A stretch of 43,369 nt of DNA from Acidobacteriaceae bacterium. Lineage in GTDB: Bacteria; Acidobacteriota; Terriglobia; Terriglobales; Acidobacteriaceae. Positions within the stretch are counted from its first letter, which is position 1, and each line of letters opens with the position of its first letter. The notes under the pieces were generated by a model. It worked only from the letters and a program-made list of their open reading frames with translations, did not search any database and had not been told where the DNA came from. Positions 1 to 43,369 of the stretch are shown here, one piece after another. Where the stretch lies: positions 19,276 through 62,644 of the forward strand of contig PKUV01000086.1 in NCBI GenBank assembly GCA_003131315.1, in the 5' to 3' direction. The position numbers and the translations under genes were made by a program.

Positions 1-33
1 GTCCTGCCGGGCGGGGACGCCCGGCGCTCCACG
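1..33. repeat. GC-rich palindrome, cut by window edge
   Basis: Inverted repeat with arms CCGGGCG and CGCCCGG, followed by CTCCAC. It matches the right half of the element at 5779-5835 and lies just past the stop of the dinG-like gene. The left half lies outside the window. Confidence 0.7.
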
Positions 34-4955: not shown

Positions 4956-5780
4956 ATGTTGAAATACTTCTCGCAAGTGGTCGGAACCCTCTTTTTCGCG
5001 CTCAATCTATTCATGCTCGCTCTGCCTGCTCACGCTCAGGACAACTACGAAATCCAGGTCTACGGTTCGGAAGCGACGCCGAAGAACGTGACCATGGTGG
5101 AAATCCATTCCAACTTCACCGTGGACGGCCAGAAGACGGTGGTCAATGGCGTTGCCCCTACGAATCACGCCATGCACGAGACGCTGGAGATCACACAGGG
5201 CTGGACAAACTGGTTCGAGACCGGCTTCTATGTGTTTACGAGCATCCAAAACGGCGACGGCTGGGAGTGGGTGGGCGATCATATTCGTCCGCGGGTTACG
5301 GCTCCGGAGTCGTGGCACTTGCCGGTGGGCCTGAGCCTGGCGCAGGAAATTGGCTATCAGCGGCGGAAGTTTGCCGAGGACAGCTGGAACTATGAGCTTC
5401 GTCCCATCATCGACAAGAAACTGGGGCGCTGGTACTTCGCCTTTAATCCGGCGTTTGACCGGGCGCTGCATGGTCTGAACACCGGCAGGGGCTGGGAGTT
5501 TTCTCCGAATGTGAAAGTCAGTTACGATTTCACCAAGAAGATCACCGGCGGCTTTGAATACTACGGAGCTCTCGGGCCCGTCTCAAACTTCGATCCCATT
5601 TCCCAACAGTCGCAACAGATCTTTCCTACGATCGACCTTAATCTTTCGCCGAACTGGGAGTTTAATTTCGGCGCGGGAGTGGATGTAACCAACTCCGCCG
5701 ATCATTTGATCGTAAAGTGCATCATCGGACGGCGCTTCAGTTGGGGGCATGACCACAAGCCGAGCGCCGCGCAAAGATAG
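4956..5780 (+). CDS. Predicted outer-membrane beta-barrel protein
   Basis: The 274-residue product starts with a classical signal peptide (hydrophobic core LFFALNLFMLALPAHA, cleavage before QDNYE). The rest alternates polar and aromatic residues in short strands (for example WYFAFNPAF, VSYDFTKKITGGFEYYG, WEFNFGAGVDV), and the last strand is FSWGHD, followed by a short polar tail. It resembles small transporter-like barrels but I cannot name a substrate. The ATG at 4956 has no strong ribosome site. The stop codon at 5778-5780 overlaps the first two bases of the palindromic element at 5779. Confidence 0.75.
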   Translation: MLKYFSQVVGTLFFALNLFMLALPAHAQDNYEIQVYGSEATPKNVTMVEIHSNFTVDGQKTVVNGVAPTNHAMHETLEITQGWTNWFETGFYVFTSIQNGDGWEWVGDHIRPRVTAPESWHLPVGLSLAQEIGYQRRKFAEDSWNYELRPIIDKKLGRWYFAFNPAFDRALHGLNTGRGWEFSPNVKVSYDFTKKITGGFEYYGALGPVSNFDPISQQSQQIFPTIDLNLSPNWEFNFGAGVDVTNSADHLIVKCIIGRRFSWGHDHKPSAAQR

Positions 5781-5835
5781 TGGAGGGACGGGCGTCTCGC
5801 CCGTCCAGCCGGGCGGGGACGCCCGGCTCTCCACT
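5779..5835. repeat. Double palindrome flanked by AGTGGAG/CTCCACT
   Basis: Two hairpins in a row: GGGACGGGCG/CGCCCGTCC and GCCGGGCG/CGCCCGGC. They are bounded by the inverted ends AGTGGAG and CTCCACT. This is the most complete intergenic copy of the element seen elsewhere in the window. Confidence 0.85.
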
Positions 5836-5879
5836 AGCAAGCTTGGATCGACAAGCGTAACAATCACGCGGTCGCGGCA

Positions 5880-7022
5880 CTAGCCGATGGGCTCCGCCGA
5901 CGGCGGCAGCGGAGGCGCTTCGAACGGCGGCGGAGATTCTGGGACTGGGGGCAATTCCGGCGCCGGAGGCGTGGGCGCCGGATTTAGCAGCGCGTCGAGA
6001 TTCGGATATCGAGAAGCAAAGAAATATATCGCGTACGCAGGGAAGAAGACGGTGGCCGGCACGCTCACCAGGGCGATCAGGTAAATCAGGAGGAGCAGGA
6101 GCAAGCTTCCAAAGATGATCGCCAGACTGATAGTGGTCACGTTCCATCCCAGTCCTGCGGCCCTGCCCGCCAGCACGGCAACCACACCAGGGACCACGAC
6201 GAACAGTGCCGGGATGATCGCGATGATTGTGAACAGGATGCCCGCCGCAATGGAAAGCACCAACTTGAGCAGCAGGTAAACGGCATATCTCCCCTTCTCC
6301 CGTCGGATCATTGCCAGTAAACGGTGCCAGCCGTCGGCAAAATCGAGATTCTCGAGAGCCATAATCGGCACCAGAAAATCTTTAGCCAGCACCTGAACCA
6401 CAGCGGCTGCCAGCACGAAGACGACAAGCAGGCCCACGAGCAAAATCACTCCGACAATCAACCGCCCGATGTGTTCCCGCAGATTTGTCGTCCACCCCGC
6501 AGCGAACGCGAGGGCCAGCGGTAAGCCCACGAGAACCGCCAGCGACAGCCATGTCGAAATCAGAAACACAATCTGCCACAGAAAAAATCGGCCGCCGGCG
6601 CGACGCCATTTTCGCCATCCCTCACCAATCGAACATTGCTGCCGCAGAACCGAGTCGAACAGGATGAAGCGGAACACGCTGCTGATGTACAGGAAGACGA
6701 ACGCCAGCACGATTACGGCGAAGATTCCGACCACGATCAATCCGATGAACTGCCCGATGTGCTCGGAAATGTGCGCGGGATTGAAGGGAGGCCAACCAGA
6801 CGGCAGACTCGAAGATGGCAGCAACTCGCTCCCGCTTTTGTGTGGGACGCGAGGCCAACTGCCCCCGAAGTTTCCGAAATTGCATCCGCCGACATGCAGT
6901 TCCGCCGCCAGAATCCCAACCAGCGCCAGGCGCAACCATTGCCCAAAGCGGAAACGAGTAAAGAGTTGTTCCCGCGCGTGCTGCAGGGCGGGCTGTACGC
7001 AATCAACGGCGGAAACCGGCAC
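5880..7022 (-). CDS. Polytopic membrane protein of unknown function
   Basis: The 380-residue product has about six or seven strongly hydrophobic segments, for example around residues 95-115, 148-172, 185-212 and 250-318. It ends in a Pro/Glu-rich cytoplasmic-looking tail (APTPPAPELPPVPES and onward). The pattern is like glycerophosphodiesterase-associated or DUF975-type membrane proteins, but I do not recognise a conserved catalytic motif. The GTG start at 7022 has GAGGT about 8 nt upstream. It stands alone between the barrel gene and trmFO. No function is proposed. Confidence 0.75.
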   Translation of the reverse strand: MPVSAVDCVQPALQHAREQLFTRFRFGQWLRLALVGILAAELHVGGCNFGNFGGSWPRVPHKSGSELLPSSSLPSGWPPFNPAHISEHIGQFIGLIVVGIFAVIVLAFVFLYISSVFRFILFDSVLRQQCSIGEGWRKWRRAGGRFFLWQIVFLISTWLSLAVLVGLPLALAFAAGWTTNLREHIGRLIVGVILLVGLLVVFVLAAAVVQVLAKDFLVPIMALENLDFADGWHRLLAMIRREKGRYAVYLLLKLVLSIAAGILFTIIAIIPALFVVVPGVVAVLAGRAAGLGWNVTTISLAIIFGSLLLLLLIYLIALVSVPATVFFPAYAIYFFASRYPNLDALLNPAPTPPAPELPPVPESPPPFEAPPLPPSAEPIG

Positions 7023-8550: not shown

Positions 8551-8602
8551 GCGAAGCCGAGCTGCGCTCGGCTTGGGCGGACGAGGGCGTCCGCCCCTAC
8601 AC
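8551..8602. repeat. Double palindrome between selB and trmFO
   Basis: Two hairpins: AGCCGAGC/GCTCGGCT and GGGCGGACG/CGTCCGCCC with loop AGGG. It lies between the 3' end of selB and the 5' end of trmFO, so it could act on either message. Confidence 0.75.
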
Positions 8603-10516: not shown

Positions 10517-10644
10517 TGTGTGGGGCGGACACTCTTGTCCGCCGCCTTTGATCTTGGGGTTGATCTTGATTTTTGTGTTGATCCCGATTCTTCAATTTCC
10601 AGATCAACGTCAAATGCGGCGGACAAGAGTGTCCGCTCCACACA
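10517..10644. repeat. Composite inverted repeat, selB-purL intergenic
   Basis: The arms 10517-10551 and 10610-10644 match as inverted repeats at about 33 of 35 positions. Each arm itself contains the hairpin GCGGACACTCTTGTCCGC. The 58-bp centre is A+T-richer and contains repeated TTGATC words in both orientations. The whole looks like a small transposable unit built from the common hairpin. Confidence 0.85.
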
Positions 10645-10703: not shown

Positions 10704-13142
<2,439 letters not shown>

Positions 13143-13207: not shown

Positions 13208-13232
13208 GGCTAAGAGCTAAGAGCTAAAGGCT
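13208..13232. repeat. Short direct repeats, TAAGAGC type
   Basis: Reads GGCTAAGAGCTAAGAGCTAA then AGGCTAA: a 7-base unit repeated with small changes just before the purF start. The same type occurs at 28338-28412 and 31374-31402. Confidence 0.7.
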
Positions 13233-13241
13233 AACTGTTAA

Positions 13242-14666: not shown

Positions 14667-14822
14667 TGTCGCGTCCCGTAGATTAGGAACATAAGTTTGA
14701 ATTGTCATCTTGAGCGGACGTAGGGACAGCCGCCCCCGGCTGTCCGGCCGGGCGAAGCCCCGCCACGCTCGCTTCGCTCCAGATGACAGGGTGGATTTAT
14801 GCTACGAAAAGCTCCTGTTTGG
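14667..14822. mobile_element. MITE-like element, copy 1, with nested palindrome
   Basis: Begins directly after the purF stop codon. The left part has ATTGTCATCTTGAGCG; the right part has CGCTTCGCTCCAGATGACA and GGTGGATTTATGC. The outer ends match copies at 19701 and 24811 in inverted order. The interior is filled by a different element, the hairpin pair GGGACAGCC/GGCTGTCC and GGCCGGGC/GCCCCGCC (about 14721-14764). No coding capacity. Confidence 0.7.
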
Positions 14823-19700: not shown

Positions 19701-19852
19701 GTGGTGTCCCGCAACCTCGAGGCATAAATCCACACTGTCATCCTGAGCGAAGCGAAGGACCTGTGTATTTGCGTGCGCCATGCATAGATCTTTCGCTTCG
19801 CTCAACATGACAGCCCAAACTTATGCCGCGACTGTGCGGACAATGCACCAGG
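19701..19852. mobile_element. MITE-like element, copy 2
   Basis: Starts at the first base after the TonB-receptor stop. Left end GTGGTGTCCCGCAA; left inner arm CTGTCATCCTGAGCGAAGCG; right inner arm CGCTTCGCTCAACATGACAG; right end CAATGCACCAGG. The terminal inverted repeats are about 60 bp and imperfect. No coding capacity. Confidence 0.75.
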
Positions 19853-19931: not shown

Positions 19932-20846
19932 TCAGCCCCGCGCGGTTTTTCTCGCAATCGCCACCCGCGCGATCCCCTGCAAATCGTTTCTGATCTCAAC
20001 CTCGTTCCAACTCGCCAGCAGGCTCCGCACTTGATCGGCAATCGTCCCGCTGATCTCGAACACCAGCCATCCCCAAGGACCGAGCGCCTCACGCGCCTGC
20101 GGAATCAGTCGCTCGATCACTTCCAGACCCGTCGGCCCCGCAAACACCGCATTTCGCGGCTCGAACTTGCGCACTTCGAGCTGCACAGACTCTTCCTCCG
20201 AATCCCCCACGTATGGAGGATTCGAAACCACGATGTCGAACGAAGCCGGCGGCAATCCCGGGGTCCCCGGCGCGCCCGCGTTTGGCGCGCTGGGGTGGAA
20301 TCCGCCCAGCAAATCCGCAAGGTGAAATTCGATTCGCGAAGTAAGTTCGTGCCGCGCCGCATTGGCCCGAGCCACTTCCAGCGCTTCAGGAGAAATGTCC
20401 GTTGCGTGGATCTCCGCCGATGGCAGCTCTTTGGCCAGAGCAAGCGCAATCGCTCCCGACCCGGTACCCACATCGACGATGCGTAGATCGTGGAGGGACG
20501 GGCGTCCTCGCCCGTCCGCTTTCGCCAGCTCCAGCACCGCCTCCACCACATGCTCCGTTTCCGGACGAGGAATCAGTACCGCCGGCGACACGATAAAATC
20601 CAGCCCCCAGAACTCCTGGTGCCCCGTGATGTACTGTGCCGGCACGCCGGTGGCACGGCGCGCGCGAGCTTCGTCATAGCGCTGCAGTTCTCCCGCCGTC
20701 AGTTCCCGCTCAGGATGCGCATAGAGATACGCCCGGTCACAGCCGAGCGTGAACATGATGAGGAGTTCCGCATTCATGCGCGGAGAAGGAACGCGCGCGG
20801 TAGTCAGCCGGTCAACCACCGCATTCAGAGCCTGGCGAAGTTGCAC
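19932..20846 (-). CDS. prmC: Release-factor glutamine N5-methyltransferase PrmC
   Basis: Methylates the Gln of the GGQ motif in RF1 and RF2 with S-adenosylmethionine. The 304-residue product has the N-terminal substrate-binding bundle, PRPETEHVVE, the SAM site VDVGTGSGAIALALA (about 124-138) and the catalytic NPPY at 209-212. Two short inserts are visible. Residues about 109-120 (AKADGRGRPSLHD) come from the palindrome at 20490-20519 just before the SAM motif. Residues about 183-199, rich in Gly, Ala and Pro, come from 20257-20298 just before the NPPY strand. Both keep the frame. prfA lies upstream on the same strand, the usual pairing; the 133-bp gap holds short direct repeats. Confidence 0.96.
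   Translation of the reverse strand: MQLRQALNAVVDRLTTARVPSPRMNAELLIMFTLGCDRAYLYAHPERELTAGELQRYDEARARRATGVPAQYITGHQEFWGLDFIVSPAVLIPRPETEHVVEAVLELAKADGRGRPSLHDLRIVDVGTGSGAIALALAKELPSAEIHATDISPEALEVARANAARHELTSRIEFHLADLLGGFHPSAPNAGAPGTPGLPPASFDIVVSNPPYVGDSEEESVQLEVRKFEPRNAVFAGPTGLEVIERLIPQAREALGPWGWLVFEISGTIADQVRSLLASWNEVEIRNDLQGIARVAIARKTARG
20257..20298. repeat. Palindrome inside prmC, downstream part
   Basis: Arms CCCCGGCGCGCC and GGCGCGCTGGGG around a 6-nt loop. In frame, encoding a Gly/Ala/Pro-rich stretch between FHLADLL and FDIVVSNPPY. It is weaker evidence of insertion than 20490-20519, since linker length here varies in the family. Confidence 0.6.
20490..20519. repeat. Palindrome inserted in frame in prmC
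   Basis: GTGGAGGGACGGGCG followed by CGCCCGTCCGC, identical in type to the left half of the intergenic element at 5779. It lies between the LELA helix and the VDVGTGSG motif. Confidence 0.8.
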
Positions 20847-24732: not shown

Positions 24733-24760
24733 GTGTGGCGCGGACACTCTTGTCCGCGCG
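24733..24760. repeat. TGTGGCGCGGACACTC hairpin
   Basis: GTGTGGCGCGGACA and TGTCCGCG around a short CTCT loop. This is a typical copy of the type also found at 29279, 41396 and inside lipB. Confidence 0.8.
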
Positions 24761-24810: not shown

Positions 24811-24974
24811 CACCAGTGTGGTGTCCTGCAAGTTCGCGACATAGGTTTGGGTTGTCATCCTGAGCGAAGCGAAGGATCTCCTGCATAGCGAATTCAAGTG
24901 CACAGGTCCTTCGCTTTGCGCAGGATGACAGAATGGATTTATGCCGCGAACTTGCGGTACCGCGCACACACCAG
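24811..24974. mobile_element. MITE-like element, copy 3 (best preserved)
   Basis: Left arm: CACCAGTGTGGTGTCC, GCAAGTTCGCGACATA, then TGTCATCCTGAGCGAAGCGA. Right arm in reverse complement: CCTGGTGTGTGCGC, GCAAGTTCGCGGCATA, then CTGTCATCCTGCGCAAAGCG. Arms are about 65-70 bp and imperfect. The right end stops at the ribosome site of the DinB-like gene (AGGAGG at 24973-24978), so the element may carry or abut its promoter. Confidence 0.8.
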
Positions 24975-25530: not shown

Positions 25531-25590
25531 CGTGTAGGGACGGGCGCCTCGCCCGTCCAAGCTGAGCGAAGCCCGGCCCCGGTGTGCAGC
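25531..25590. repeat. Palindrome after the DinB-like gene
   Basis: GGACGGGCG/CGCCCGTCC with loop CCT, then a weaker GCGAAGCCCGGCCCCGG part. Same type as 5779. Confidence 0.75.
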
Positions 25591-28337: not shown

Positions 28338-28412
28338 TTCTGGAAGCCAAGAGCCAAGAGCTAAAGGCCAAGAGCTGACAGCTGAGAGCTGAAAGCTGAC
28401 AGCCGAGAGCTT
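28338..28412. repeat. AGAGCTGA-type direct repeats
   Basis: About eight units of 7-9 bases, AAGAGCCAAGAGCTAAAGGC and then AGCTGACAGCTGAGAGCTGA and on. They fill the gap between ligA and the DUF488 gene and end at the latter's stop codon. Confidence 0.8.
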
Positions 28413-29273: not shown

Positions 29274-29278
29274 CCTAT

Positions 29279-29302
29279 GTGGCGCGGACACTCTTGTCCG
29301 CG
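29279..29302. repeat. TGTGGCGCGGACACTC hairpin
   Basis: GCGGACA/TGTCCGC hairpin 5 nt after the cytochrome stop codon; could act as an mRNA 3' structure. Confidence 0.8.
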
Positions 29303-29371
29303 TGACTGTGTGCAGCAAGAACGCACTAGCGCCGCGCGCGCAATTGTTACCGCTCTCGATGCAAGCTTGCT

Positions 29372-29428
29372 TGTGGAGAGCCGGGCGTCCCCGCCCGGAG
29401 GGACGGGCGAGACGCCCGTCGCTCCACC
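29372..29428. repeat. Double palindrome before selA
   Basis: GCCGGGCG/CGCCCGG and GGACGGGCG/CGCCCGTC bounded by GTGGAG and CTCCAC. It is the 5779 element with the two hairpins in inverted order, 28 bp before the selA start. Confidence 0.8.
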
Positions 29429-29456: not shown

Positions 29457-30947
29457 GTGTTCGCCGCCAACAAATCCGAGCTCTTTCAGAAACTGCCTTC
29501 GACGGACGAACTTCTCCGCCAGCCAGACATGCAGGCGCTGACCGAGCGCGACGGTCATTCCGCCGTCGCCGAAAGTATCCGCGTCGTGCTCGCGCGCCTT
29601 CGCCAGGAAATCGCGGGTGGTCAAATCGGCGACGCCCAGCTGGACGAGAAGTCGCTGGACCTCGCGCTCGGCGGCCTGTCCGCAGCCGTCGAACGCCAAC
29701 TCCGCCAGTCGCTGAGTTACTCCTTGCTGCCGCTCGTCAACGCCACCGGCGTGATTCTCCACACCAATCTGGGGCGCGCGCCGCTGGCTGCCGCTGCGCT
29801 CGATCACGTCCGCGCCACAGCGAGCGCCTATTCCAATCTCGAATTCGACTTATCGACGGGCGAGCGCGGGAAGCGCGACGTCCATGTGGATCGCCTGTTC
29901 CAAAAGCTTCTAACTGTGGATCGTGTTGGGGATCGTGTGGAGGCGGGGCTCGGCCCCGCCTCGGCCGAGCGCAGCTCGGCCGCCATCTCGACCATCGTAG
30001 TCAACAACAACGCCGCCGCGGTTCTGCTCGCGTTGAACTCGCTTGCCGAGGGCGGCGAAGTCATCGTTTCGCGCGGAGAGCTGGTCGAAATCGGCGGTTC
30101 GTTCCGCATCCCCGACGTGATGTCGAAGTCGAATTCGACGCTGCGCGAAGTCGGCACGACCAACCGTACACGCGTCGCCGATTACGAACGTGCCATCAAC
30201 GACCGCACGCGCCTCCTGCTCCGCGTGCATCGTTCCAACTTCGAAATCACCGGCTTCACCGAGCAGCCTGGGCTCGACGAGCTGGTCGCCCTGGCCCGTG
30301 GCCGAGACCTTCCGCTCATGGAAGATCTGGGCAGCGGCGCGCTGTTCGATCTGCGTTCGGTCGGAATCACCGGCGAACCGGGCGTGCTCGACAGCCTGCG
30401 CGCCGGCGTCGATATCGTCACCTACAGCGGCGATAAACTTCTCGGCGGCCCGCAAGCTGGATTGATCAGTGGCCGCGCCGATCTGGTCGCGCGCATGCGC
30501 TCAAACTCGCTGTTTCGCGCGCTGCGCGTGGACAAGCTCACCTACTCCGCGCTCGAAGCCACGCTGCTCGCCTACGTCAAACGCGACCACGACGCAGTGC
30601 CGGTGCTGCACATGATGCGCCTGTCGAAAGACGAGATCGCGCGCCGCGCGGAAAAAATTGTTTCCCGAGTCGTATCTGCTCAAGTCAAATCCAGCAACCT
30701 CAAGCTGGAACTCCTCGATGGTGAATCCGTCATCGGCGGCGGCGCTGCGCCATCGGCCGTCTTGCCCACGCGCCTGATCGCGCTCACCCATGCCGACCTC
30801 AGCGCCGACGAACTAAGCGCCCGTCTCCGCGCCAGCACTTCGCCGGTAATCGCCCGCGTAGAAGAAGGCCGGGTCCTGCTAGACCTGCGCACCGTGTTTC
30901 CAGAGCAGGATACTGTTCTTGTAGAGGCGCTGAATTCCGTAGCGTGA
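29457..30947 (+). CDS. selA: L-seryl-tRNA(Sec) selenium transferase SelA
   Basis: PLP enzyme that turns seryl-tRNA(Sec) into selenocysteyl-tRNA(Sec) with selenophosphate. The 496-residue product starts at GTG 29457 (MFAANKSELFQKLPSTDELL), which fits the family N-terminus. Motifs: VNATGVILHTNLGRAPL, VVNNNAAAVLLALN, RVHRSNFEITGFTE, and the PLP lysine Lys327 in YSGDKLLGGPQAG. Residues about 158-178 (DRVEAGLGPASAERSSAAIS) precede VVNNNAAA where the family is normally continuous; they come from the palindrome at 29935-29983. acpS follows after 47 bp. selB is at 8605-10497; selC and selD are not in the window. Confidence 0.97.
   Translation: MFAANKSELFQKLPSTDELLRQPDMQALTERDGHSAVAESIRVVLARLRQEIAGGQIGDAQLDEKSLDLALGGLSAAVERQLRQSLSYSLLPLVNATGVILHTNLGRAPLAAAALDHVRATASAYSNLEFDLSTGERGKRDVHVDRLFQKLLTVDRVGDRVEAGLGPASAERSSAAISTIVVNNNAAAVLLALNSLAEGGEVIVSRGELVEIGGSFRIPDVMSKSNSTLREVGTTNRTRVADYERAINDRTRLLLRVHRSNFEITGFTEQPGLDELVALARGRDLPLMEDLGSGALFDLRSVGITGEPGVLDSLRAGVDIVTYSGDKLLGGPQAGLISGRADLVARMRSNSLFRALRVDKLTYSALEATLLAYVKRDHDAVPVLHMMRLSKDEIARRAEKIVSRVVSAQVKSSNLKLELLDGESVIGGGAAPSAVLPTRLIALTHADLSADELSARLRASTSPVIARVEEGRVLLDLRTVFPEQDTVLVEALNSVA
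29935..29983. repeat. Double palindrome inserted in frame in selA
   Basis: GGCGGGGC/GCCCCGCC and CGGCCGAGC/GCTCGGCCG in succession, after GTGTGGA. Conserved SelA sequence resumes directly after it. Confidence 0.85.
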
Positions 30948-32725: not shown

Positions 32726-32760
32726 TTGCAGCAGGAGAAGTCGGCAGCGCCACAAATCAC

Positions 32761-32812
32761 GTGGGGACGGACGCCTCGTCCGTCCAGCCGAGCGAAGCTC
32801 GGCAGCGCTTCG
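32761..32812. repeat. Double palindrome after the mlaD-like gene
   Basis: GGACGGACG/CGTCCGTCC with loop CCT, then GCCGAGC/GCTCGGC. Same architecture as 5779 with changed arms, the changes compensating on both sides. Confidence 0.8.
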
Positions 32813-41395: not shown

Positions 41396-41422
41396 GTGTG
41401 GCGCGGACACTCCTGTCCGCGA
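41396..41422. repeat. TGTGGCGCGGACACTC hairpin, lipB-pdhA gap
   Basis: GCGGACA/TGTCCGC with loop CTCC, in the 82-bp gap between lipB and pdhA. Nearly identical to the copy inside lipB 530 bp away. Confidence 0.8.
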
Positions 41423-42293: not shown

Positions 42294-42360
42294 GGTGGAG
42301 CGCCGGGCGCCCCCGCCCGGCCGCGACGCTTCGGACGGGCGAGGGCGCCCGGCGCTCCAC
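42294..42360. repeat. Palindrome cluster upstream of the rRNA promoter
   Basis: Hairpins GCCGGGCG/CGCCCGG, and GGGCGCCC-type arms, bounded by GTGGAGCGCC and GGCGCTCCAC. Perfect outer inverted ends of 10 bp. It separates lipB from the rRNA operon. Confidence 0.8.

Positions 42361-43023: not shown

Positions 43024-43369
<346 letters not shown>

Follow-up and report, generated by a model that had tools for sequence, protein, structure and literature searches.

Matched arm changes in palindromic repeats of an Acidobacteriaceae bacterium fit REP hairpins kept foldable for a single-strand transposase

We identified the double palindromes of an Acidobacteriaceae genome as REP elements of two related families, here called class A and class B, and the matched changes between their arms fit DNA hairpins that are kept foldable for a single-strand transposase. 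The elements were studied from a stretch of 43,369 nucleotides, referred to as the window, and from the genomes of related species. Covariation is strong between REP families and in the second hairpin of class B, but weak among the dispersed copies of class A. Very probably, these elements are mobile hairpins that do not move autonomously but rely on RAYTs (REP-associated tyrosine transposases, single-strand enzymes of the HUH/Y1 type), with families that diverge together with their RAYT and copies that decay after insertion.

A sequence-only reading of the window had described five copies of a double palindrome with a shared two-hairpin plan. Hairpin elements indeed lie no more than two bases away from each of the five positions (5/5) and the double palindromes are real, but the copies divide into two families. 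Class A has the plan GTGGAG, hairpin, hairpin, CTCCAC and, considered on both strands, consists of two similar inverted GTGGAG-hairpins, that is, a REPIN. In class B a GTRG-type foot and hairpin 1 are separated by one or two bases from a second hairpin, the loop of which is usually a GNA triloop, and the CTCCAC end is lacking. The REPIN arrangement, in which two inverted REPs form one foldable unit, is found in class A only and not in class B. The class A core at 5780-5834 (+ strand) reads GTGGAG, hairpin 1 GGACGGGCG-TCT-CGCCCGTCC, hairpin 2 GCCGGGCG-GGGA-CGCCCGGC, CTCCAC, and is predicted as single-stranded DNA to fold into a clover with an outer stem and two hairpins (z -8.75). A second core, at 29373-29427, is inverted (- strand); both are intergenic. 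The variant at 42295-42360 (+ strand), whose ends form an 18-bp inverted repeat and in which one of the two small hairpins is partly broken, is predicted as one long hairpin despite its GTGGAG/CTCCAC ends. Finally, a stub at 1-32 (- strand) is half a class A element (hairpin 2 and the GTGGAG end), cut by the window start.

Class B is represented at 25532-25577 (+ strand; GTGTAG, hairpin 1 GGACGGGCG-CCT-CGCCCGTCC, AA, and an imperfect second hairpin GCTGAGC-GAA-GCCCGGC, 5/7 paired) and at 32759-32803 (+ strand; ACGTGG, hairpin 1 GGACGGACG-CCT-CGTCCGTCC, A, and the second hairpin GCCGAGC-GAA-GCTCGGC, 7/7 paired), the latter predicted as two separate hairpins in single-stranded DNA (z -4.49). Further members lie at 8556-8602 (- strand; hairpin 1 GGGCGGACG-CCCT, second hairpin GCCGAGC-GCA-GCTCGGC) and 14718-14763 (+ strand; hairpin 1 GGACAGCCG-CCCC, second hairpin GCCGGGC-GAA-GCCCCGC, 6/7), together with a class B-like element at 29935-29980 (+ strand; hairpin 1 AGGCGGGGC-TCG, second hairpin GCCGAGC-GCA-GCTCGGC). 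A single-hairpin type, class C, consists of a foot and GCGGACA-CTCY-TGTCCGC with or without one further pair, and occurs five times: at 10518-10543 (+ strand; GTGTGG-GGCGGACA-CTCT-TGTCCGCC), 10619-10643 (- strand; 7-bp perfect arms), 24733-24758 (+ strand; GTGTGG-CGCGGACA-CTCT-TGTCCGCG), 29277-29302 (+ strand) and 41396-41421 (+ strand). A REP hairpin GGACGGGGC-TTC-GCCCCGTCC is located at 11122-11148 (+ strand) and a single REP hairpin GGACGGGCG-TCCT-CGCCCGTCC, without a second hairpin, at 20488-20517 (+ strand).

This division changes how the five copies compare. GTGGAG/CTCCAC-like ends, which had been ascribed to all of them, are carried by 5780, 29373 and 42295 only; 25532 starts with GTGTAG and 32759 with ACGTGG, both are without CTCCAC, and their second hairpin is a different one. 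The two-hairpin fold holds in prediction for 5780 and 32759 but not for 42295. Because the copies belong to two related families, the earlier arm comparison mixed families: its example set GGACGGGCG, which class A and class B copies carry, against GGACGGACG of the class B copy at 32759, and crosses family lines. The window also contains the start of a bacterial 16S rRNA gene (43024-43369, running into the window and contig end) and seven-base tandem-like GCTAAGA/GCTGACA runs at 13209-13234 and 28346-28399.

Covariation between REP families is strong, as can be seen from the arms that flank RAYT genes. We fetched 137 RAYT loci, 131 of them over 80 bits, and retained 104 after removing genes at least 97% identical (89 in the tree); as two query proteins were used to collect them by similarity, these loci sample one RAYT clade. 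A foot followed by a hairpin was found 284 times in the 70.8 kb within 350 bp of these 104 genes and 27 times in the 127.9 kb at 800-1500 bp (4.01 versus 0.21 per kb). Such elements are present at 93 of the 104 loci, on both sides at 79, and absent by the scan rule at 11. In a pairing-independent scoring, each foot was given its best 8-nt arm with no choice by complementarity. Near RAYTs, arms were complementary at 8/8 positions for 215 feet, 7/8 for 54 and 6/8 for 27, as opposed to 20, 9 and 67 far from them, and arms are therefore mostly perfect or absent. The 104 loci carry 65 distinct 8-nt arms. Feet among 137 RAYT-side arms are TGTGG (59), TGTAG (33), CGTAG (18), GGTGG (9), TGGAG (7) and others, in a scan that itself required a GTAG-like foot; with the feet reversed, almost none are obtained. 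On the tree of 89 proteins, a minimum of 58 changes is required to explain the seven pairs nearest the loop, compared with a mean of 147 and a minimum of 135 when labels were permuted 200 times, and each of the 58 is both-sided because the compared arms are perfect. Two RAYTs that are 71% identical (L170 and L171), for instance, are flanked by the arms GACGGACA and GTCGGACA. Counted from the loop, the stems follow the rule NCNGNCN: of the 137 arms distinct within their locus, 133 have G at pair 4, the same number have C at pair 6 and 118 have C at pair 2, while pairs 1, 3, 5, 7 and 8 vary.

The sequence-only reading had suggested looking for a REP-associated Y1 transposase gene elsewhere in the genome of the window. 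This genome has 11 Y1_Tnp matches, at least 8 of them with hairpins on both sides, and one is a RAYT, but its hairpins are of class C and none of those listed beside the 11 matches is of class A or B. The gene (contig C140, 172218-172697) has class C hairpins on both sides, the type also found in the window at 10518. In a RAYT family test of two proteins, the C140 protein scored 91.7 bits and the other 95 against NF047646 (cut-off 80), and both were above the cut-off for PF01797. The C140 protein has HVH and YIRQNP motifs, read by eye, and resembles E. coli TnpAREP in matching PDB 4er8 TnpArep at E 5.1e-8 (chain 4er8_A, which we take to be the E. coli protein). Its relatives were gathered from 61 genomes, own included, and from the best 80 of 468 matches on named contigs; among these 80, the closest come from metagenome-assembled Terriglobales and Acidobacteriaceae. 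Other Y1 transposases of the same genome (L006, L004, L008) have hairpins of their own, and those of L006, at 1358-1377 and 1930-1949 of the locus, have the arms GGCATCGC and GTCATCGC, both of which are matched by the opposite arm.

The identification of the elements as REPs, which the sequence-only reading had offered by analogy, is borne out by RAYTs of related genomes that have the class A hairpin (L154, L216, L207) or the GGACGGACG double hairpin (L239) beside them. L216 is the gene that also occurs in genome G003, and its counterpart L154, from G004, is 89% identical and shares its neighbourhood. Upstream of both lies a TGGAG-footed GACGGGCG hairpin, whereas on the downstream side GACGGGCG in L216 stands against CACGGGCG in L154, both arms being swapped at corresponding positions. 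L207, 60% identical to L216, has the GACGGGCG hairpin on both sides, L212 has a GCACGGGCG hairpin with a TGGAG foot, and L155 is bordered on both sides by inverted pairs of GTGGA-footed hairpins, a REPIN-like plan. Upstream of L239, CGTAG-GGACGGACG-CCT-CGTCCGTCC is followed by GCGGAGC-GAA-GCTCCGC, which repeats the layout of the copy at 32759 except for a single swapped pair in the second hairpin. When the 61 genomes were searched with the L216 protein, close matches came only from G003 (100%) and G004 (89%), the next being at 56%; the genome of the window has no close relative of it, the class C RAYT (46%) being the one protein there that reaches E <= 1e-20. On the basis of this search, class A and class B elements appear to be orphans in their own genome, with their RAYTs found only in relatives. 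The assembly is interrupted within these repeats by contig ends and N gaps, so a repeat-flanked RAYT gene could be missing from it.

The second hairpin of class B provides a further test, which we anchored on a GCGNAGC core no more than 22 nt after hairpin 1, so that the outer pairs played no part in the choice. All five outer pairs are complementary at 30 of 46 REP-linked GCGNAGC sites compared with 18 of 2865 other ones. Covariation is strong overall: 38 distinct copies have 25 both-sided cells in four of the five pairs (shuffle mean 7.8, maximum 17), 5 one-sided cells and 33 broken cells (shuffle mean 60, minimum 46). By itself, the subset from the window's genome with ACGGGCG as hairpin 1 (13 copies) is suggestive, with 6 both-sided cells where shuffles have a mean of 1.7 and a maximum of also 6. 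A GNA loop occurs in 36 of the 46 genome readings with complete pairing, some elements being read from both strands. A perfect 6-bp second hairpin is present in 38 of 223 RAYT-flanking REPs, in 19 loci, and is thus limited to some families; 26 of these 38 have a GNA loop. GNA loops closed by G-C are described as forming DNA mini-hairpins of extraordinary stability, GCGAAGC melting only at temperatures of up to 78 C (consulted part of PMC4686876). The stability of such loops suggests that the folded form is DNA rather than RNA.

Within class A, covariation is weak and hardly anything suggests that individual copies are kept to their fold after insertion. Our larger set contained 81 N-free near-full cores (79 distinct, from five species) out of 181 profile hits. 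Across the 79 cores, the outer stem has 6 both-sided cells versus a shuffle mean of 5.8, hairpin 1 has 7 (2.4) and hairpin 2 has 2 (0.5). Five of the 9 inner cells (3.0 in shuffles) are one and the same pair, G-C to A-T at positions 10-28, changed in the window's genome (G000, two), G017, G003 and G020, with one-sided intermediates present. In the two hairpins without pair 9-29, 28 cells hold a pair-keeping G-T and 25 a pair-breaking A-C, and single changes are therefore without preference for pairing. The compensating arm changes claimed by the sequence-only reading thus stand between families and in the second hairpin of class B, but class A alone comes near to what that reading had named as its own refutation, namely no covariation beyond that expected from the shared ancestry of the arms. 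A smaller class A set, from which 14 of 53 cores were dropped (N or short) and in which 31 of the remaining 39 were aligned, left out one duplicate and seven cores with insertions, deletions or a broken arm, including 42295, and so favours the fold; its 10 both-sided cells (shuffle mean 3.5) look stronger than the 79-core result and are not relied on. On the 31-core alignment, RNAalifold chose a long-hairpin fold for class A. This candidate was rejected: its one both-sided pair lies in the outer stem common to both folds, and by explicit counts in the 31 and the 79 cores, the inner compensations belong to the clover, whereas the arms of the long hairpin are without any (0 both-sided cells in the 79 cores, shuffle 0.5).

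Could matched arms arise by mutation, with template switching or gene conversion copying arm onto arm (quasi-palindrome correction) and no selection? The both-sided changes of class A lie mostly at or near helix ends, as this would predict, and flank swaps around the 47 near-full class A cores of the window's genome have their breakpoints at the border of the REPIN, pointing to possible sequence exchange between copies. On the other hand, dispersed class A copies decay and are left uncorrected, with broken pairs persisting, perfect arms are concentrated beside RAYTs, and pairs 4 and 6 are near-invariant amid varying neighbours, which arm copying alone does not predict. We therefore regard mutational matching as rather unlikely. 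Given the strong covariation between families and the weak covariation within class A, selection seems to act on the copies that can be mobilised and not on each copy in place.

Alternatively, the hairpins might be kept as RNA, as terminators or protectors of mRNA 3' ends, with the host selecting paired arms in place. The 5780 copy sits between two convergent gene ends, and in three relatives this gap is occupied by other palindromes, as might be expected of such a role. We could read the site in 9 of 24 genus genomes, own included. Class A copies or remnants are present in G000, G004, G012, G018 and G020, another palindrome, TGTCATCCTGAGCGAAGCGAAGGACC or its inverse, in G009 and G003, and a third palindrome in G017, but in G014 the site is empty (TAGTTTCTAG). 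A similar truncated right junction is shared by G004, G012, G018 and G020, suggesting one ancestral insertion. Their hairpins differ: in G020 the end pair is T-A and one pair is G-T, in G004 the loop is closed by A-T and other pairs are broken, that of G012 is collapsed and that of G018 is only half on the contig. The TGTCATCCTGAGCGAAGCGAAGGA repeat, found in the window at 19736-19762 and 24853-24879, is a separate palindromic family and replaces class A at this site in G009 and G003. As for the 29373 element, it is absent in 9 of 10 relatives read on both flanks, and G017 keeps half of it with the hairpin unchanged; beyond this half, orthologous copies at the 29373 and 32759 sites offered almost nothing informative. 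Elements are gained, lost and replaced, which disfavours a strong role in place. The decay of class A copies also speaks against selection as RNA, and Rfam matches in the window at gathering score are to SSU rRNA only, with none for the elements. The sequence-only reading had left the selected form as either RNA or DNA; since most second-hairpin loops are of the DNA mini-hairpin type (GNA) and terminator prediction called nothing at the element at 5780, the RNA form is not favoured, and we judge it quite unlikely.

Another question regards the units in which these elements are dispersed. The window, at 19276-62644 of contig 6, belongs to a genome of 6.0 Mb in 194 contigs, the host of which probably lives in soil or peat. 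Allowing up to three mismatches, the class A hairpin 1 pattern GGACGGGCGNCTCGCCCGTCC has 67 forward and 62 reverse matches in this genome, compared with 2 + 2 for the reversed pattern, many sites being counted on both strands because the pattern is near-palindromic. A foot with a perfect hairpin of at least 8 bp occurs 199 times in a sampled 1.43 Mb (3 with reversed feet) and 99 times in stretches of four relatives (8 with reversed feet). Densities of the ACGGGCG type are inflated in these samples because the stretches were partly picked to cover known matches. Of class A, 53 elements or fragments were recovered by an nhmmer profile search with an E-value limit of 1e-4. The sampled contigs of this genome contain at least eight REP arm types (ACGGGCG, GCGGACA, ACAGCCG, ACGGGGC, GCGGGGC, GCGGACG and others); only one RAYT of the studied clade was found in it, and RAYTs with several of its arm types sit in relatives.

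Some class A copies are part of a unit of about 135 nt, the ends of which, CTAGTACCGTGACCGCGTGAT and ATCACGCGGTCGCGGCACTAG, are inverted with 19/21 matches and terminate in CTAG in full units. In the window, the 5780 copy is followed by the right arm of this unit, with the end ATCACGCGGTCGCGGCACTAG (5835-5883, + strand), and lacks the left arm (flank type -R), and the 29373 copy has a right arm at 29328-29372 (- strand). Class A could accordingly be viewed as a MITE moved by a classical (DDE) transposase on 21-bp CTAG-ended terminal inverted repeats, the REPIN core being a passenger, and the unit arms recognisable in the sampled DNA do lie next to a class A core, unless they are truncated where a contig ends. 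Yet both arms are present at only 7 of the 47 near-full cores and neither at 20 (left only at 10, right only at 8; at the remaining 2 the left arm is present and the right side is off the contig), and in relatives the class A hairpin flanks RAYTs without unit arms. No consistent direct repeat indicative of a target-site duplication was seen by eye at the ends of the longer unit, several copies having ends that do not match. A MITE origin is, in our opinion, very unlikely. In this genome and its relatives the longer unit is often without one arm, the break lying at the REPIN edge, as if recombination swapped the flanks between copies or the REP foot served as one end in transposition.

The reading that we prefer, REPs handled by RAYTs, might work as follows. 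A RAYT would recognise a GTRG-type foot and a perfect hairpin in single-stranded DNA, could cleave and mobilise the REP, and through this recognition would be the keeper of matched arms. Class A would be the paired inverted form (REPIN), and class B would add a second DNA mini-hairpin. Each RAYT lineage would maintain the pairing of the copies that it can move, and families would shift their arm sequence in step with their transposase. If families diverge with their RAYT, their arms would therefore change together between families, and a copy, once inserted, would decay freely. A tentative extension, possible though doubtful, is that the REP of this RAYT clade serves as a single-stranded DNA tag in which pairs 4 and 6 (and mostly 2) are fixed and odd pairs can vary freely, the paired odd positions forming a RAYT-REP identity code. 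Some families might then add a GNA mini-hairpin that stabilises or protects the single-stranded intermediate, and orphan REPs may be served by the RAYTs of relatives.

Compensating changes in REP arms are already in print, in the consulted parts of two studies (PMC3116915, PMC3733652), and therefore the headline of the sequence-only reading is known behaviour in a new host group. For Pseudomonas fluorescens REPINs, Bertels and Rainey (2011; PMC3116915, in part) describe REP doublets, compensatory changes, two folds and a link to RAYTs. Class A is comparable in being made of two inverted REPs, in having clover and long-hairpin folds and in its link to RAYTs; unlike the REPINs in that part of the paper, it comes from another phylum, has a GTGGAG foot and weak covariation, and often sits in a longer CTAG-ended unit with inverted arms. 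The GTAG families of Di Nocera et al. (2013; PMC3733652, in part) have a GTAG foot (GTRG/GTGG in some) and a short stem, most of them have subfamilies with alternative complementary stem residues, and some dimers are inserted in longer palindromes. However, Acidobacteria appear in the consulted part of that study with TIR-flanked transposases (TIRYTs) and not with GTRG REPs, and neither the NCNGNCN rule nor a GNA second hairpin features there. According to the consulted part of a third study (PMC8266576), Group 3 TnpAREP proteins (Stenotrophomonas, Marinomonas) have perfect palindromic REP stem-loops. In Stenotrophomonas a mid-stem mismatch reduces or nearly abolishes cleavage, whereas changes of stem blocks are milder, and for other RAYTs the cleavage of single-stranded REPs depends on foot and stem-loop to differing degrees. 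The acidobacterial REPs resemble those of Group 3 in being perfect stem-loops and differ from E. coli REPs, which need a stem bulge according to the same part of that paper. The stem rule and the DNA-type mini-hairpin partner look new: the titles and abstracts listed from the open-access literature gave no report of an NCNGNCN stem rule or a GNA-loop second hairpin, and we found no open-access paper on palindromic repeats in Terriglobales.

These results separate two questions that are often merged, in that structure is maintained between mobile families but not visibly in the dispersed class A copies. Moreover, the 104 loci with their 65 distinct 8-nt arms amount to many natural RAYT-REP pairs, in which most stem pairs vary with compensation and two do not. 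They offer ready material for working out hairpin recognition by a single-strand transposase.
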